In this document: in pieces, positions 6,895 to 12,619 of the stretch | How the letters are laid out: the number at the start of each line of letters is the position of its first letter | How positions within the stretch are numbered: the first letter of the stretch is position 1 | DNA from: Gammaproteobacteria bacterium | GTDB lineage: Bacteria; Pseudomonadota; Gammaproteobacteria; GRL18 | DNA length: 34,064 nt | Assembly (NCBI GenBank): GCA_026196615.1 | Contig: JAPHSW010000158.1 | Coordinates: forward strand, 1-34,064 | Direction: 5' to 3' | Notes under the pieces: model-generated | The model's input: only the letters and a program-made list of their open reading frames with translations | What the model was told of the DNA's origin: nothing | The model's database searches: none | Translations under genes and position numbers: made by a program

Positions 6895-7740
6895 TTAAAT
6901 GATCCGTTCCTCCGCAAAACGCATATTGCCCCCTTCCAAGAAAATCCTCACTAGATAGATGTGCATGTCATCGCTGCCCAGACTCTCATAATAGAGGAAC
7001 ATGTTGTCATCGTTGACAACGTTAGAGGAGGATAATGAGCCATTCATGAAATGGAAGAAGGAATGGTCATTATAGAGATTGGTGGTTCGCCTCAGCTCCA
7101 ATTCGTGGCTATGGCCGCAAAAGACGTATTCGATTTTATGTCTCTGAACAAAATCAATCAGGATCGATGAATTTTTTAGAGGACACTCATCGGTGCTCAA
7201 AATAGAATAATGAGTCACGAGCAGTAATCGGTCATATTCAAGCTGGTCGATTTTCTCTGAAGCCACCTTCAGTACCTCTTTTTCCACAAACCCGTCATCA
7301 TTGTACAGTTCAGTGGAATCAATGTTGATAATCAGGATGGATTTCTCGTCTATGGTAAAGGACTTGAGAAAATTTACATCGGTAAAGTTTTCACGTACAT
7401 TGGTTATTTCCCGATTCAAAAACAAGTGTTTCTTGCTAGTTTGTACCGTATCAGAAATATGGATGATTGGGGTGTCATAAATATACTTGCGGAACAGTTC
7501 ATGGGATCTCATGTTTCTTTTGTCGTGGTTACCAATAATGGAGATGACATTTTCACATTTGAGTCCCGCCAGGAAAAGTCCTGCGGCTACATACTCGTCT
7601 TCCAGAGCATCAGTTGTGCTATCTCCAGTGTTAATCACGATATCGGCATTATATGAGTTGAGTTTTGCCAGCAGGACCTGGTCATCTCCATTCCAATGAC
7701 GAGGGCCGAAATGTAGATCGGAGATATGTAAAATATTCAT
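6895..7740 (-). CDS. Calcineurin-like metallophosphoesterase
   Basis: 281-residue cytoplasmic protein with the full metallophosphoesterase metal-binding series: SDLHFG (D8, H10), TGD (D40), GNHD (N71, H72), THYS (about residue 177) and GHSH (about 213-216). This arrangement fits the CpdA/Icc-like group of phosphodiesterases, but the substrate cannot be read from sequence. Ends in TAA next to the truncated receiver pseudogene. Its transcript would run in the same direction as the four-gene operon upstream (8106-11896) but is separated from it by 365 bp, so it probably has its own promoter. A role as headgroup phosphatase or phosphodiesterase for that operon is possible but only an inference from proximity. 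Confidence 0.85.
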   Translation of the reverse strand: MNILHISDLHFGPRHWNGDDQVLLAKLNSYNADIVINTGDSTTDALEDEYVAAGLFLAGLKCENVISIIGNHDKRNMRSHELFRKYIYDTPIIHISDTVQTSKKHLFLNREITNVRENFTDVNFLKSFTIDEKSILIINIDSTELYNDDGFVEKEVLKVASEKIDQLEYDRLLLVTHYSILSTDECPLKNSSILIDFVQRHKIEYVFCGHSHELELRRTTNLYNDHSFFHFMNGSLSSSNVVNDDNMFLYYESLGSDDMHIYLVRIFLEGGNMRFAEERII

Positions 7741-8105: not shown

Positions 8106-8870
8106 TTAATGATAAATGTCATTTACATAAATCTTAGCGGCCTCACTAAAATCCTCTAGGGTATCTATCTCTATCCATTTTGAGCCAGTAATATCCAGTG
8201 CGTAAAAAGGCACTTGCTGTTCTATTAATCTTTCATATGCCTCTTCGTAGTACTCCTGATGGTTGCTTTCATCTTCCATCATTAATCTCAACTCTGAAAA
8301 AAGTTTAATAGCTGTTGTTTTACTGATTTTTTCAATACCAATAGATTCGCCAATGGCCTTAATGGGATCAACTGATTTATTTGCTTTTACCACTTGATTG
8401 TTCTCATTGATTATCACTTTGACTTCTTCAGCATCTAACTGAATATTTTTATCAATACAAAAACAATTTTCATAATCACTTGCGATGAGATTTTCTAGAA
8501 TATTTTTATCAAAGACCACATCTGCATCAAACTTGATAAATGCTGAATTACCAACATATTTTTCAGTCAACATTAATGAGTAACCCGTATTGGTATCTGC
8601 GAAGCTTTCATTGACGAGATAGATTACATCAAGATCTGGAAATTTATCGCTGACAAATGCTTTTATCTGCTCTTGTAAATAACCTAACACCAAAATAACT
8701 TCTGTAATGCCGCAATCTAAGATATTGTTTATCATCATCTCAAGAATGGGTTTATCTTTAACTTTCAACAGGCTTTTAGGGCAATTATCAGTAAGCGGTC
8801 TGATCCGTGACCCGACACCCGCAGCAAGAATAATGGCTTTAATAGGATGATTTTGTTTATTTTTGTTCAT
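8106..8870 (-). CDS. LicC/PntC-like nucleotidyltransferase (probable CTP:phospho- or phosphono-alcohol cytidylyltransferase)
   Basis: 254-residue nucleotidyltransferase of the sugar-nucleotide/phosphocholine cytidylyltransferase fold. The N-terminal nucleotide loop is LAAGVGSRIRPLT (residues 15-27), followed by PKSLLKV. NTGYSL (94-99) and the metal-binding FDADVVF (D115, D117) follow, and near the C-terminus is WIEIDTLEDF, the second metal site typical of LicC-like and 2-aminoethylphosphonate cytidylyltransferase (PntC) enzymes. The expected reaction is CTP plus a phosphorylated or phosphonate amino-alcohol giving a CDP-linked headgroup. Its ATG overlaps the stop of the ATP-grasp gene by 4 bp (ATGA). 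The CDP-alcohol phosphatidyltransferase in the same operon would use its product. A hexose-phosphate substrate is the main alternative. Confidence 0.85.
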   Translation of the reverse strand: MNKNKQNHPIKAIILAAGVGSRIRPLTDNCPKSLLKVKDKPILEMMINNILDCGITEVILVLGYLQEQIKAFVSDKFPDLDVIYLVNESFADTNTGYSLMLTEKYVGNSAFIKFDADVVFDKNILENLIASDYENCFCIDKNIQLDAEEVKVIINENNQVVKANKSVDPIKAIGESIGIEKISKTTAIKLFSELRLMMEDESNHQEYYEEAYERLIEQQVPFYALDITGSKWIEIDTLEDFSEAAKIYVNDIYH

Positions 8871-9934
8871 GCTTGTAACTCATTAGTTAAACGCTCTCGC
8901 AGTCTTGGTATAGTAAGAGAAAAATTAGAAATTCGGTAGGCTTTATTTATCCAGCCATTGAGATAGAATTTACCCGTATTTTCTAAAATATAGTGTGGAT
9001 ATGAGCGACAATCAGCCAAGGTTTCGATTTCATTTAATACCCATTGACCGCTGTTAATATCAACAAAAAAATCGATTCTTAGATTTGGAAAGGTAGATGC
9101 CCTCGCTAAAGCTAATGCTGTTTTTTTGAGTTTTTCAAAAAACTGTTCCTTTAATATTTGTGCCATTTGTCGATCACCTTCAAGATGCTCTCCCTTATTA
9201 CCTAGACAAATATTTTGAGCATTTCGACAGCCAACGTACAATAATTCCCCCCAAGCGGTATTAAATTTCATTTCAGTTGGGCCTTGCTGAGATTTGTCAT
9301 GAGGGAATAATGCTTGGATGGTCAAACCGGAGTCAATGTGGCGCAGATGAGTATCAATATGACCAGAAGTTACACCAAGGATGTCTTCTTTAATCCAGTG
9401 AGAAAATGTTTGGAAATCTGTAATAACTTGATGAGCAGAAAAGAGGGGATCTCTTTCGTTAGAACTGCCCAAAAATTCTGCTTTTAGTTTGCTCTTATAA
9501 CGAAATGCTTTTAACGTGCCAATGCTCTCCGAACCATTAATGGGTTTAATAATAAATTCTTCTCGGTTTTTTACTTTAGCAAACACAAGCTGGAATAAAC
9601 GTTTAATTTCTGATTCGTCATTCAATGATGAACTATAAGTATATGTTTCTTGAATAGGTACTAAATCTTTAACCCATTCGATGAGCAATATTTTATTGGC
9701 AAAGAAGGATAAGGCATCGACTTTATTTAAGGTTAGATCTGGTTTTTGTACATTGTGCATCAAACTATGATAATCAATATTTCCAGCATAGTGATTCATT
9801 TTATGACTACAATCGAATACTGATGAAATCTCATAATTTTTCGTATGCACTAAGATAGGTTCATAAATAGTGTTTTCGGCTGTTTTTTCAGAGACATGTT
9901 TTGACGGTGATATATTTTCTATATTCGTGTTCAT
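8867..9934 (-). CDS. ATP-grasp-like ligase of unknown substrate
   Basis: 355 residues from ATG at 9934, chosen because it overlaps the upstream stop as ATGA; the frame extends to an ATG at 10012, but that reads inside the upstream gene. ATP-grasp traits: a lysine-bearing strand and loop EFIIKPINGSESIGTLKA, and near the C-terminus an acidic metal-binding pair, LRIDFFVDINSG followed by WVLNEIETLADC. These proteins typically ligate a carboxylate to an amine, thiol or hydroxyl through an acyl-phosphate. I do not recognise a specific subfamily. Lying between the phosphatidyltransferase and the nucleotidyltransferase, it may attach an amino acid or other acid to the headgroup or its precursor. No signal peptide or membrane segment seen. 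Confidence 0.72.
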   Translation of the reverse strand: MNTNIENISPSKHVSEKTAENTIYEPILVHTKNYEISSVFDCSHKMNHYAGNIDYHSLMHNVQKPDLTLNKVDALSFFANKILLIEWVKDLVPIQETYTYSSSLNDESEIKRLFQLVFAKVKNREEFIIKPINGSESIGTLKAFRYKSKLKAEFLGSSNERDPLFSAHQVITDFQTFSHWIKEDILGVTSGHIDTHLRHIDSGLTIQALFPHDKSQQGPTEMKFNTAWGELLYVGCRNAQNICLGNKGEHLEGDRQMAQILKEQFFEKLKKTALALARASTFPNLRIDFFVDINSGQWVLNEIETLADCRSYPHYILENTGKFYLNGWINKAYRISNFSLTIPRLRERLTNELQA

Positions 9935-10698
9935 TTTGCTTTTCCAAGTTGTCGTCCTAGATCCAAACCTCGAAAAATAGCGTAAATCAATTGACTGATA
10001 GCGAAGACCCATAACATTGGTGTTAGACTATTGAATATTAGGGCGAACGATAGCATAAAAATAAACACCCCTTCATCAAAAGCTAAAATCTTGTGCTGCT
10101 CGGCGAAAAACCAACGAATATTCTCTATAGCACTAAAACTTATCCCCGCTTTATCAGGCATTTTTTCAGATAATTTTTTGGCAGAGCACTGCTCCAAGTA
10201 AGTAGCGTCATTCTCCATTTGTGTGTAATAGTACATATACTTGACGTAACCGCGCAGAGAGAAAAATGCGACGCCTATAAAGGCTAGAAAAATTGGCTCT
10301 ACGCTTTGAGATTGATTATAAGCAGCATAGCCAACAGCACCAAACCAAAGAATCACCTGGAGATGATCGGTAAATTTATCATAATAACTGCCTGAAGAAG
10401 AATAACTCTTGCGATAGCGTGCCATTTGTCCATCCATACAATCAAGTACATGGCTAAGTTGGATTAACCCTGCTGCAATGATAAAGTTGACACTGCCTCC
10501 TATCACAATAAGCACCATAGATATTAACGCAATCACAAATGATAATAAGGTAATAATATTCGGTGATAACCACTTTATATCCACCATAAAATAATTGGCG
10601 ACTATCGCTAAAGGGGAGGTGACAAAGGATGACCACCATTCGTCATCTTTGTTTTTAGTCGCCCATAATAGGATCATTTTCTCGTTTACAAGAGTCAT
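9931..10698 (-). CDS. CDP-alcohol phosphatidyltransferase family membrane protein
   Basis: 255-residue integral membrane enzyme with the complete family motif D(x2)DG(x2)AR(x8)G(x3)D(x3)D at D86, D89-G90, A93-R94, G103, D107 and D111. Hydrophobic segments surround it (about 46-68, 69-84, then several after 115 and near 200-240). The family transfers a phosphoalcohol from a CDP-alcohol to a second alcohol, or an alcohol to CDP-diacylglycerol, at the inner membrane. With a cytidylyltransferase in the same operon, the first mode (headgroup-CDP plus diacylglycerol or similar) seems likelier. The start ATG is 1 bp after the aminotransferase stop, and its stop overlaps the ATP-grasp start, which points to translational coupling. 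Confidence 0.9.
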   Translation of the reverse strand: MTLVNEKMILLWATKNKDDEWWSSFVTSPLAIVANYFMVDIKWLSPNIITLLSFVIALISMVLIVIGGSVNFIIAAGLIQLSHVLDCMDGQMARYRKSYSSSGSYYDKFTDHLQVILWFGAVGYAAYNQSQSVEPIFLAFIGVAFFSLRGYVKYMYYYTQMENDATYLEQCSAKKLSEKMPDKAGISFSAIENIRWFFAEQHKILAFDEGVFIFMLSFALIFNSLTPMLWVFAISQLIYAIFRGLDLGRQLGKAK

Positions 10699-10699
10699 T

Positions 10700-11896
10700 T
10701 TAAATTGTTTCCACAGAAATTAATGCAGGAGGAGTCAATACATCTTGAATGCTGGTCAAAAAAGGTTTGCGAGAAGTTACTAAAGTCAACTTAGGATCTT
10801 CTTGTTGATTGAAGCTATGTAAAATTTCTTTTTGTACATCCAAGAAGAATTGAATATCATCAAAGGATACCTCACCAATATTGCCCACTTGAAACATCTT
10901 ATTTTTAAAACATCCCTTACCCTCGTAAATAATGATAGATTTATCTCGTAGTTTTTGGCGTAGTACATCAACGTCAATATAAGCAGGAACATGCACAGTG
11001 GTTAATATGGAGCACATATCGCGTTCATTAAGTAGAAACTTAAGTCCTAATATCTGCATGCCTTCGCGTAAAAAGTTTGCTTTACATCTTAGTTCGGCAT
11101 AACGATTGGCAACACCTTGTTTAAGTATATTGCTCAATGCTTGCTCAAGTGCAAAAAAAAGTGGTACGGCAGGTGTATTAGGTGTTTGTGACACTGTTTT
11201 TAGGAATGTATATAATTTATATAAATTCAAATAGGCCGTTTTAATTGGATAATTTTTTAATTTTTCAAATTCAACTGTTTTACCAATAACAAATGATAAA
11301 CCAGGGTAGGAGCCTATTGCTTTTGAGCTTGAACTTGAGAAAAAGGAAATGTTGTTTCTTTTAACATCAATCGCTTCAGCACCTGCACTACTAACACAAT
11401 CGACGATAAAAATTGCACCATTCGCTTTTGCTAACGCGCCAATGGATTCTAAAGCATTAAGAATGCCTGAACTCGTTTCATGATGAACCATGGCTATGAC
11501 ATCAATTTTATGCTTTGTTACATAGTCTGAAATTATTTTAATATCTAATCGCTGTCCCCAAGGAAATTCAAGTACAAATGTATTCTTATTGTGGATCTTG
11601 GAAATTTCATGCAAGCGGCTACCAAATTCTCCATTAGAGAGAACAAGGATGTTCTTATCACCAACAACAGAAGAAAGCATCGCTTCATTCGCGGCTGTTC
11701 CAGAACCTGTTAAGACTACACCTCTATAGTCATCTACCGCTTCTATTTCAAATACTTTAAGTAATTTTTGTTCAATACTTTGCAATAAAAGATCAAAGTC
11801 AGTTTCCCGATGACAAATATCTTCTTTAGCAATAGCGGAACGTACATTAATAGCAACATTTACTGGGCCAGGTGTTAATAATAAATATTTATTCAT
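10700..11896 (-). CDS. Class V PLP-dependent aminotransferase, 2-aminoethylphosphonate transaminase-like
   Basis: 398-residue fold-type I aminotransferase. It begins MNKYLLLTPGPVNV, the opening shared by AEP-pyruvate transaminases and alanine-glyoxylate/serine-pyruvate aminotransferases. GSGTAANEAML (64-74) binds the cofactor phosphate, D166 in VDCVSS pairs with the pyridine nitrogen, and K192 in SSSSSKAIGSYPG is the Schiff-base lysine. It has a C-terminal extension of about 30 residues beyond the usual end. CTGGAG lies 11 nt before the ATG. First gene of the four-gene operon. The likely role is amination of an aldehyde to give an amino-alcohol-type headgroup. No PEP mutase or phosphonopyruvate decarboxylase is visible here, so a phosphonate substrate is not proven. 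Confidence 0.82.
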   Translation of the reverse strand: MNKYLLLTPGPVNVAINVRSAIAKEDICHRETDFDLLLQSIEQKLLKVFEIEAVDDYRGVVLTGSGTAANEAMLSSVVGDKNILVLSNGEFGSRLHEISKIHNKNTFVLEFPWGQRLDIKIISDYVTKHKIDVIAMVHHETSSGILNALESIGALAKANGAIFIVDCVSSAGAEAIDVKRNNISFFSSSSSKAIGSYPGLSFVIGKTVEFEKLKNYPIKTAYLNLYKLYTFLKTVSQTPNTPAVPLFFALEQALSNILKQGVANRYAELRCKANFLREGMQILGLKFLLNERDMCSILTTVHVPAYIDVDVLRQKLRDKSIIIYEGKGCFKNKMFQVGNIGEVSFDDIQFFLDVQKEILHSFNQQEDPKLTLVTSRKPFLTSIQDVLTPPALISVETI

Positions 11897-12619
11897 ACAT
11901 ATATCTCCAGATAAAGATTAATTTACCGATAACTTAATGATGCTCACACAGGATAGGCGAGCAAACAAAATAAGATTGTTGAACAACAAATTAATATTTT
12001 CCGAAAACAAATAACGATTTATGTATGCAAATAGTGGCCTAACGCTTCAGTAGTTCGTTAGAACTCTGGTCACGCATTCTAAGCTAAACTTATGACACGC
12101 CTGAGTTCTGCCATCATATAAATAACTACATCGACAGGAATACAGAGCTAAAAGCTATACAGCTTAAGCGTTCAACATAATATAAACTTTATTCAAGTTC
12201 GCTCTACACATGTATTTCGTATAGGCATATTAATCAAGAAATGTAGAGATAATAAATTTTGAAAGGAAAAATCTGACAAAGAGGCAATGATCTATCTACA
12301 AAATCATTGTCCGCTCTTTTCATTATTTCTAGTCAGCTGGAATAATATTCATCGAAAATAGCTGATAAGAAGGGATACTAAAATGAGATGTATCAATCCC
12401 GAGTTTGACTAGAAAGTTGTTATCTTAACCTGTTATAATTGATCAGATATGCACTTAAAATCCGTGCTAAATCAATATCATCCTTAACGCTACAAAGATT
12501 TTCTGATGACTTGAAAAGTAACTAACGCTTTCCTAAGAAGAATATTTTTATTTTCTTCTTAGGATTCACGCTGATAGTATCTATGTAACAGCTTCAAATA
12601 AATGGGAACTATTCTAGTT
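11897..12619. other. 723-bp intergenic region upstream of the aminotransferase operon
   Basis: No gene is supported in either direction. It should contain the promoter of the minus-strand operon at 8106-11896. Two small symmetric elements are visible: TTGTTGAACAACAA at 11976-11989, 80-95 bp before the aminotransferase start, a possible operator; and the 12-bp stem-loop at 12531-12564 after groEL, listed separately. The length and lack of coding potential suggest that genes were lost here or that the region is regulatory. Confidence 0.5.
12531..12564 (-). terminator. Stem-loop downstream of groEL
   Basis: Perfect 12-bp inverted repeat, TCCTAAGAAGAA paired with TTCTTCTTAGGA, with a 10-nt loop, located 56 bp after the groEL stop codon. 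The stem is AT-rich and no U-tract follows on the groEL (minus) strand, so it may be a weak terminator or an mRNA 3'-end stabiliser rather than a classical intrinsic terminator. Confidence 0.5.

Follow-up and report, generated by a model that had tools for sequence, protein, structure and literature searches.

A mobile-looking four-gene operon predicted to aminate, activate, and transfer a phosphorylated headgroup in a gammaproteobacterium

Organization of the operon

The window analyzed here, a 34,064-nucleotide stretch of gammaproteobacterial contig JAPHSW010000158.1 (assembly GCA_026196615.1), carries a four-gene operon entirely on the minus strand, from position 11896 to position 8106. Its first gene (AT; 10700 to 11896) encodes a class V aminotransferase of 398 amino acids that resembles 2-aminoethylphosphonate (AEP) transaminases (PF00266, 81.7 bits). 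It is followed by a CDP-alcohol phosphotransferase (CDP-OH; 9931 to 10698; 255 amino acids; PF01066, 50.8 bits) with the complete motif DGx2ARx8Gx3Dx3D, a third gene (8867 to 9934; 355 residues plus stop) whose product is called ATP-grasp-like on the basis of its motifs, and a LicC/PntC-like cytidylyltransferase (NT; 8106 to 8870; 254 amino acids; PF00483, 53.2 bits). A single base (10699) separates AT from CDP-OH, and the two remaining junctions are ATGA overlaps, at 9931 to 9934 between CDP-OH and the third gene and at 8867 to 8870 between the third gene and NT. The third gene most likely starts at 9934, where the alignment with the two relatives of its product, described below, also begins; a start at 10012 would give a longer open reading frame (ORF; 381 amino acids) sharing 82 bp with CDP-OH.

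These coordinates and spacings agree with an earlier note on this DNA, which had described a coupled four-gene operon on one strand. The gene families that it named also held for AT, CDP-OH with its complete motif, and NT, each of which matches a Pfam family over cut-off (Aminotran_5, CDP-OH_P_transf, and NTP_transferase, respectively), but its ATP-grasp label is less secure than it had stated, the third protein having no Pfam match over cut-off.

Recurrence and distribution of the gene set

Relatives of the third protein were sought by a pattern scan of genome contigs with six peptide patterns from one sequence, which misses more distant relatives. Two were found, both in metagenome-assembled genomes (locus L003 in genome G186 and locus L004 in genome G187), and in both cases AT, CDP-OH, and NT genes adjoin. 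The gene order in L003 (60% G+C) is AT-NT-CDP-OH-third gene, and that in L004 (37% G+C) is AT-CDP-OH-third gene-NT, the contig ending after 57 codons of NT. In these two loci, CDP-OH and the third protein are 57.5 to 62% identical to those of the window, with the third protein at 62% (L003) and 58% (L004) over the alignment. Whereas both CDP-OH and the third protein of L003 show 62% identity, its AT and NT show 27% and 23%, indicating that enzymes of the same two kinds but of different lineages have been paired with one conserved CDP-OH/third-gene pair. The AT and the NT fragment of L004 are each 63% identical to their counterparts in the window.

Parts of the set also occur elsewhere. AT-CDP-OH-NT occurs on a plasmid of Sulfitobacter sp. 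SK012, at 64, 54, and 53% identity to the window proteins; the third gene was found on this plasmid neither in the annotation nor by tblastn of the plasmid collection, in which the third protein had no match at all. In genome G293, which belongs to the same phylum, AT (72%) and NT (62.5%) stand together, and 274 bp farther on lies a different, PgsA-like CDP-alcohol phosphotransferase that scores 66 bits, below the cut-off of 109.1. Given the state of the G293 assembly (completeness, 90%; contamination, 3%; 340 contigs), it is not certain that this AT-NT contig belongs to the genome.

The mosaic formed by the L003, L004, Sulfitobacter, and G293 loci points to a functional set rather than chance neighbors. 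The neighborhood survey that the earlier note had called for thus found the genes kept together elsewhere, as the AT-NT pair in G293 and as larger sets in the other three, and not scattered, the outcome that the note had weighed against its own proposal. That the genes are degradative, or unrelated and adjacent by chance, is highly improbable. PhnW can serve to degrade AEP (PMC10590968), and few of the searched genomes carry the set, but it recurs in loci of 37 to 60% G+C, with translational overlaps in three of the four other loci, and no PhnX-like gene was recognized by eye among the ORFs adjoining the operon.

The third protein was present in 1 of 186 genomes of relatives, in none of the 15 other genomes of the same genus, and in 1 of 398 genomes of a phylum sample, the single carrier being the window's own genome each time. 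At an E value of 1e-10, CDP-OH was found in 3 of the same 398 genomes, comprising the window's own and two weak matches (G272 and G428; 43 to 49 bits). The latter look unrelated and were rejected as members of the set; in locus L055, NT and CDP-OH are fused in one ORF, and AT had no match in either L055 or L056. A profile of window-type ATs matched 1 of 48 genomes in the class of G293, namely G293 itself. The patchy distribution, together with the range of G+C contents among the loci, suggests horizontal transfer of the set. Scans of viral contigs with CDP-OH and the third protein yielded no relative; 23 phage records matched NT, all at less than 60% identity, and the CDP-OH matches on two actinobacterial plasmids are 30 to 33% identical and unannotated.

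Properties of the encoded proteins

The CDP-OH motif is matched in the window, L003, Sulfitobacter, and G293 sequences; L004 has serine in place of the first alanine, leaving the strict pattern unmatched. A profile built from four CDP-OH sequences found, in order, AF2299, CHPT1, IPCT-DIPPS, CHPT1, and CEPT1 (E values of 8e-9 to 3e-4, with the CHPT1, CEPT1, and IPCT-DIPPS matches at 5e-7 to 3e-4; the search output does not tell the donor of AF2299), whereas CDP-diacylglycerol enzymes, represented by PssA and inositol-type chains, rank lower (E values of 0.013 and above). PF01066 covers both reaction types, those with CDP-headgroup donors and those with CDP-diacylglycerol donors. Because cholinephosphotransferase-type chains outrank the CDP-diacylglycerol enzymes, the ranking favors a donor of the CDP-headgroup kind, as NT would supply.

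This ranking argues against an arrangement in which NT and CDP-OH are uncoupled, with CDP-OH joining CDP-diacylglycerol to an aminated alcohol and the product of NT serving a glycan, as does the fact that visual inspection of the ORFs listed around the operon revealed no glycan gene. The breadth of PF01066 would accommodate such an arrangement, as would the PgsA-like gene 274 bp from the AT-NT pair of G293 and a LicD-like ORF (identified by eye) that adjoins the Prevotella NT discussed below, but we consider it quite unlikely.

Among solved chains, the NT profile ranks LicC (1jyk; E value of 2e-25) first and PntC (6pd1; E value of 1e-22) second. The best NCBIfam matches of NT are sugar nucleotidylyltransferases, all far below cut-off, and its assignment as a hexose-1-phosphate enzyme, which the earlier note had named as counting against its proposal, was rejected on the ranking of solved chains. 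In Treponema PntC, R15, K25, and K153 are catalytic and E104 and E196 contact the amine (PMC6697681). The window NT keeps R15, K25, D106, K153, and E196 and has aspartate at position 104; the LicC row, which is out of register by one residue here, was not used. These residues do not discriminate sharply, because the NT of a Rhizobium pepM cluster likewise has aspartate at 104 and a Prevotella NT has the same residue set, with no pepM recognized in the stretch around it. In a 14-row tree, the window NT group (99/98) is apart from the pair formed by the Treponema denticola and G293 PntC proteins (100/99); deeper branches of this tree are unsupported, several branches are long, and the L004 fragment was left out.

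The nearest outside relative of NT among plasmid records is that Prevotella protein, at 40% identity. In Prevotella oral taxon 299 (L012:4946-7544), a HisC-like pyridoxal phosphate (PLP) enzyme, NT, and the LicD-like ORF stand in tandem, a trio that is likely an aminophosphate decoration set. On plasmids of Gloeothece (L015:5989-7818) and Pseudonocardia (L016:6019-7863), NT is fused to a class I/II aminotransferase, with an annotated LicD nearby in Gloeothece. A Mesorhizobium plasmid (L017:4032-8654) has NT, a CDP-alcohol transferase, a GHMP kinase, and a class I/II aminotransferase, with no pepM in the annotated stretch, and is possibly a parallel activated-headgroup set.

The window aminotransferase is closest, among solved chains, to AEP transaminases. 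A profile of four window-type sequences ranks the AEP transaminase (AEPT) half of the T. denticola PntC-AEPT first among solved chains (222.6 bits), followed by Salmonella PhnW (195.1 bits) and two more AEP transaminase chains (183.1 and 179.7 bits); serine and alanine-glyoxylate enzymes score 97 to 162 bits, and 7e7g, which is named an AEP transaminase, lies among them at 145.9. The best solved relatives of the window AT itself are 6pd1 and 1m32. Its score against the PhnW-AepZ model TIGR03301 (295.0 bits) is below the cut-off of 360.8, similar to those of the ATs in L004 (292.1) and the window-type locus of G293 (284.4), while the AEPT of a pepM cluster in G293 scores 364.2. The PLP lysine K192 and the HxET motif (HHETSSG), which we take to be catalytic, are kept.

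The window-type enzymes differ from predicted AEP transaminases at one substrate-site position. The PhnW motif FRxGNIG reads FQVGNIG in the window AT, and Gln336 is present in all four window-type ATs, whereas arginine occupies this position in 31 of 31 predicted AEP transaminases checked. These comprise the AEPT of the G293 pepM cluster and 30 proteins for which loci were available among the 46 over-cut-off PhnW matches listed in one phylum sample. Arginine is also kept in the AT of L003 and in two plasmid AEPTs. From the ends of the alignment of the window AT to its solved relatives, we infer that position 336 corresponds to Arg360 of human alanine-glyoxylate aminotransferase, the substrate-anion position (PMC9340776). 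A 19-row tree places the four window-type ATs together (94/81) and the AEP transaminases, including that of the G293 pepM cluster, in another, weakly supported group (80/71); the tree has several long branches and an arbitrary root and includes 8 of the 30 checked PhnW loci. In genome G216 (L053:7059-8870), an AEP-transaminase-like domain shares a 603-amino-acid ORF with a segment that, judged by eye, resembles the beginning of a Cys/Met-metabolism PLP enzyme.

For the third protein, the best Pfam match is ATPgrasp_ST (PF14397), at an E value of 0.09 and in one of three sequences, and an NCBIfam D-Ala-D-Lac ligase model matches residues 288 to 341 of the 381-amino-acid ORF at 0.067. Two motifs, IIKPxNGSxSxG and LRxDFFVDxxxGxWVxNEI, are kept in all three sequences and are presumably the lysine-containing nucleotide loop and the acidic metal motif of ATP-grasp enzymes. 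The ATP-grasp label derives from these motifs and the two matches. Comparison by hhalign with five PF14397 proteins gave an alignment of only the 35 columns around the lysine motif, at 7.7% probability; a PDB profile search returned no ATP-grasp chain up to an E value of 10, and two AlphaFold runs from the three sequences gave pLDDT values of 35.0 and 33.4.

Outside the four genes, the 723 bp between the operon and groEL (11897 to 12619) contain no ORF of 100 amino acids and no Rfam match, as holds for Rfam across the whole window, and promoter predictions (28, as opposed to 21.5 +/- 4.0 for shuffled sequences) were not informative. A phosphoesterase gene at 6895 to 7740 was rejected as a fifth member, since visual inspection of L003, L004, L006, and L054 revealed no equivalent next to the set, although no search was made for it.

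Phosphonate genes in the carrier genomes

The genome containing the window (99.21% complete, 288 contigs) has a single match to the phosphoenolpyruvate (PEP)-mutase family (PF13714), located beside a citrate-synthase-like ORF. This protein reads EDQ...KRCGH and is presumably PrpB-like. The motif EDKxxxxxNS, which marks true PEP mutase (Ppm; PMC6697681), is absent from it. The best match to phosphonopyruvate decarboxylase (Ppd) reaches 21.8 bits against a cut-off of 312.5; this search is without a positive control, because none of the 14 control genomes passed the cut-off, whereas the PF13714 search has one in the true Ppm of G293. G186 encodes one EDQ...KRCGH protein and G187 has no match to the family, the completeness of neither genome being told, such that none of the three carriers of the complete set yielded a protein with the PEP-mutase motif. 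Synthesis of AEP in the same cell was rejected on the lack of a true Ppm and of an over-cut-off Ppd in so complete a genome, and the phosphonate headgroup raised in the earlier note lacks support to this extent.

Phosphonates might also be acquired by salvage, with imported compounds converted to AEP or phosphonoacetaldehyde, which AT would interconvert before NT made CMP-AEP and CDP-OH made an AEP lipid. Several observations fit such a phosphonolipid operon: T. denticola PntC-AEPT provides, in its two halves, the closest solved relative of AT and the second closest of NT; the annotation of a Rhizobium plasmid places a LicC-like NT, an AEPT, aepX (pepM), and aepY (ppd) together; and phosphonoacetaldehyde is a known product of enzymes acting on other phosphonates (PMC10590968). 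The absence of a true Ppm and an over-cut-off Ppd, the Arg-to-Gln change at the substrate site of AT, and the separate grouping of window-type NT and AT from the PntC pair and the AEP transaminases all argue against it. The genome has six over-cut-off matches to PF12974, two of them of PhnD size, but no phnC or phnE was recognized by eye directly beside these two; AEP-specific transporters were not searched for. Overall, we judge supply by salvage somewhat unlikely.

G293 bears on this question in both directions. Besides the window-type AT-NT pair, it encodes a true Ppm, in two Ppm/Ppd loci with the EDK motif. One of these loci has its own AEPT and PntC, however, with 32% identity to the window AT and 26% to the window NT, respectively, and this AEP cluster and the AT-NT pair are on different contigs. 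That the cluster has its own two enzymes indicates that the window-type pair is an addition to it, not part of it. In both G293 loci (L061 and L062), which also contain Ppd, Ppm is fused to a nucleotidyltransferase-like domain whose signature arginine is lost (E or D); the one adds AEPT and PntC, and the other lies about 4 kb from an ORF that by eye resembles a CDP-alcohol transferase (L062:3150-4007).

An amino-alcohol phosphate, rather than AEP, is the favored candidate for the headgroup. Besides the Ppm loci of G293, four points weigh against this interpretation. The best solved relatives of AT are AEP transaminases and not enzymes acting on dihydroxyacetone phosphate or glycolaldehyde phosphate; NT keeps K153 and E196, which are used by the AEP-specific PntC; and the ATP-grasp family of the third protein is unproven. 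Finally, the AT of L003 not only keeps the arginine but also best matches the aspartate-glyoxylate aminotransferase BhcA (205 bits, as opposed to 165 for PhnW-AepZ), such that the first step may differ in L003. The earlier note had regarded a grouping of AT with serine-glyoxylate enzymes as contrary to its proposal; the window AT is nearest to AEP transaminases, but that of L003 is nearest to an aspartate-glyoxylate model.

Proposed pathway

In the pathway that we propose, AT would aminate a small phosphorylated aldehyde or ketone to a primary-amine phosphate, such as serinol phosphate, ethanolamine phosphate, or, less likely, AEP. NT would then use CTP to join this amine phosphate to CMP, and the membrane protein CDP-OH would transfer the phospho-amine moiety to a hydroxyl on a membrane alcohol, whether diacylglycerol or another, in a Kennedy-like reaction. 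In a fourth step, the third protein, if an ATP-grasp enzyme, would create an amide linkage, either with the amine of the headgroup or with the carboxylate of a partner. The enzyme families of the first three steps, their catalytic residues, and the conservation of the set can be read from the sequences; the choice of substrates, the identity of the lipid acceptor, and the fourth step in its entirety are inferred.

The general logic of amination, activation with CTP, and transfer to an alcohol appears well supported, by the recurrence of the set among bacteria of distant lineages and by the profile ranking of CDP-OH. To this degree the function given in the earlier note stands, as a four-gene unit with these three activities, though not with a phosphonate made in this cell. 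For the first three steps acting on a headgroup that is not a phosphonate, we regard the case as evenly poised. The fullest form of the proposal, a horizontally moving bacterial Kennedy pathway with an Arg-to-Gln aminotransferase, a new amino-alcohol phosphate headgroup free of C-P bonds, a new family of ATP-grasp-like ligases that would lengthen this headgroup by an amide-linked group, and an unknown lipid class as the outcome, is a tentative possibility.

No description of this operon was found among the open-licence papers searched. If the proposal is correct, the operon represents a compact and probably transferable route to an uncharacterized bacterial lipid headgroup, and its third gene offers a way into an unrecognized ligase family. 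It would also serve as a warning that genes resembling those for AEP transaminase and PntC do not by themselves show phosphonate production. The existence of carriers with and without PEP mutase makes the question of an AEP or non-AEP headgroup testable.

Comparison with known systems

In the Kennedy pathway, a phospho-amine is activated with CTP and then used by a CDP-alcohol phosphotransferase. The window CDP-OH belongs to the same superfamily as CHPT1 and CEPT1, which act there after a cytidylyltransferase, but the operon is bacterial, would form its headgroup by transamination, and includes an extra ATP-grasp-like gene. The T. denticola PntC-AEPT (Tde1415; PDB 6PD1/6PD2; PMC6697681) similarly combines an aminotransferase with a LicC-like cytidylyltransferase and shares the five NT residues kept in the window. 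Unlike that fusion, the window AT and NT are separate proteins, with aspartate for E104 and glutamine for the AT arginine; the operon has its own membrane CDP-OH and ATP-grasp-like gene, and no true PEP mutase or decarboxylase was found in the host.

Campylobacter capsule amidation with serinol phosphate (PMC13276843) likewise uses an amino-alcohol phosphate, the amine of which is attached by an ATP-dependent ligase, and offers a precedent for the proposed pathway. It is likened here by description only; its product is a sugar polymer and not a lipid, and the part of that report drawn on here describes no cytidylyltransferase or CDP-alcohol phosphotransferase step. The pgb phosphonoglycan cluster of Pantoea (PMC9933511) brings together genes for a CDP-alcohol phosphatidyltransferase, a nucleotidyltransferase, and an aminotransferase but differs in having 14 genes, with pepM and phosphonopyruvate decarboxylase among them. 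In the methionyl-tRNA synthetase (MetRS) of Mycoplasma penetrans (PMC13215547), PntC-like and class V aminotransferase folds are paired outside phosphonate chemistry, methionine synthesis being reported for the aminotransferase domain; this is one fusion protein with a tRNA synthetase and has no CDP-OH enzyme. The parts of the operon have precedents in the last four of these systems (PMC6697681, PMC13276843, PMC9933511, and PMC13215547).

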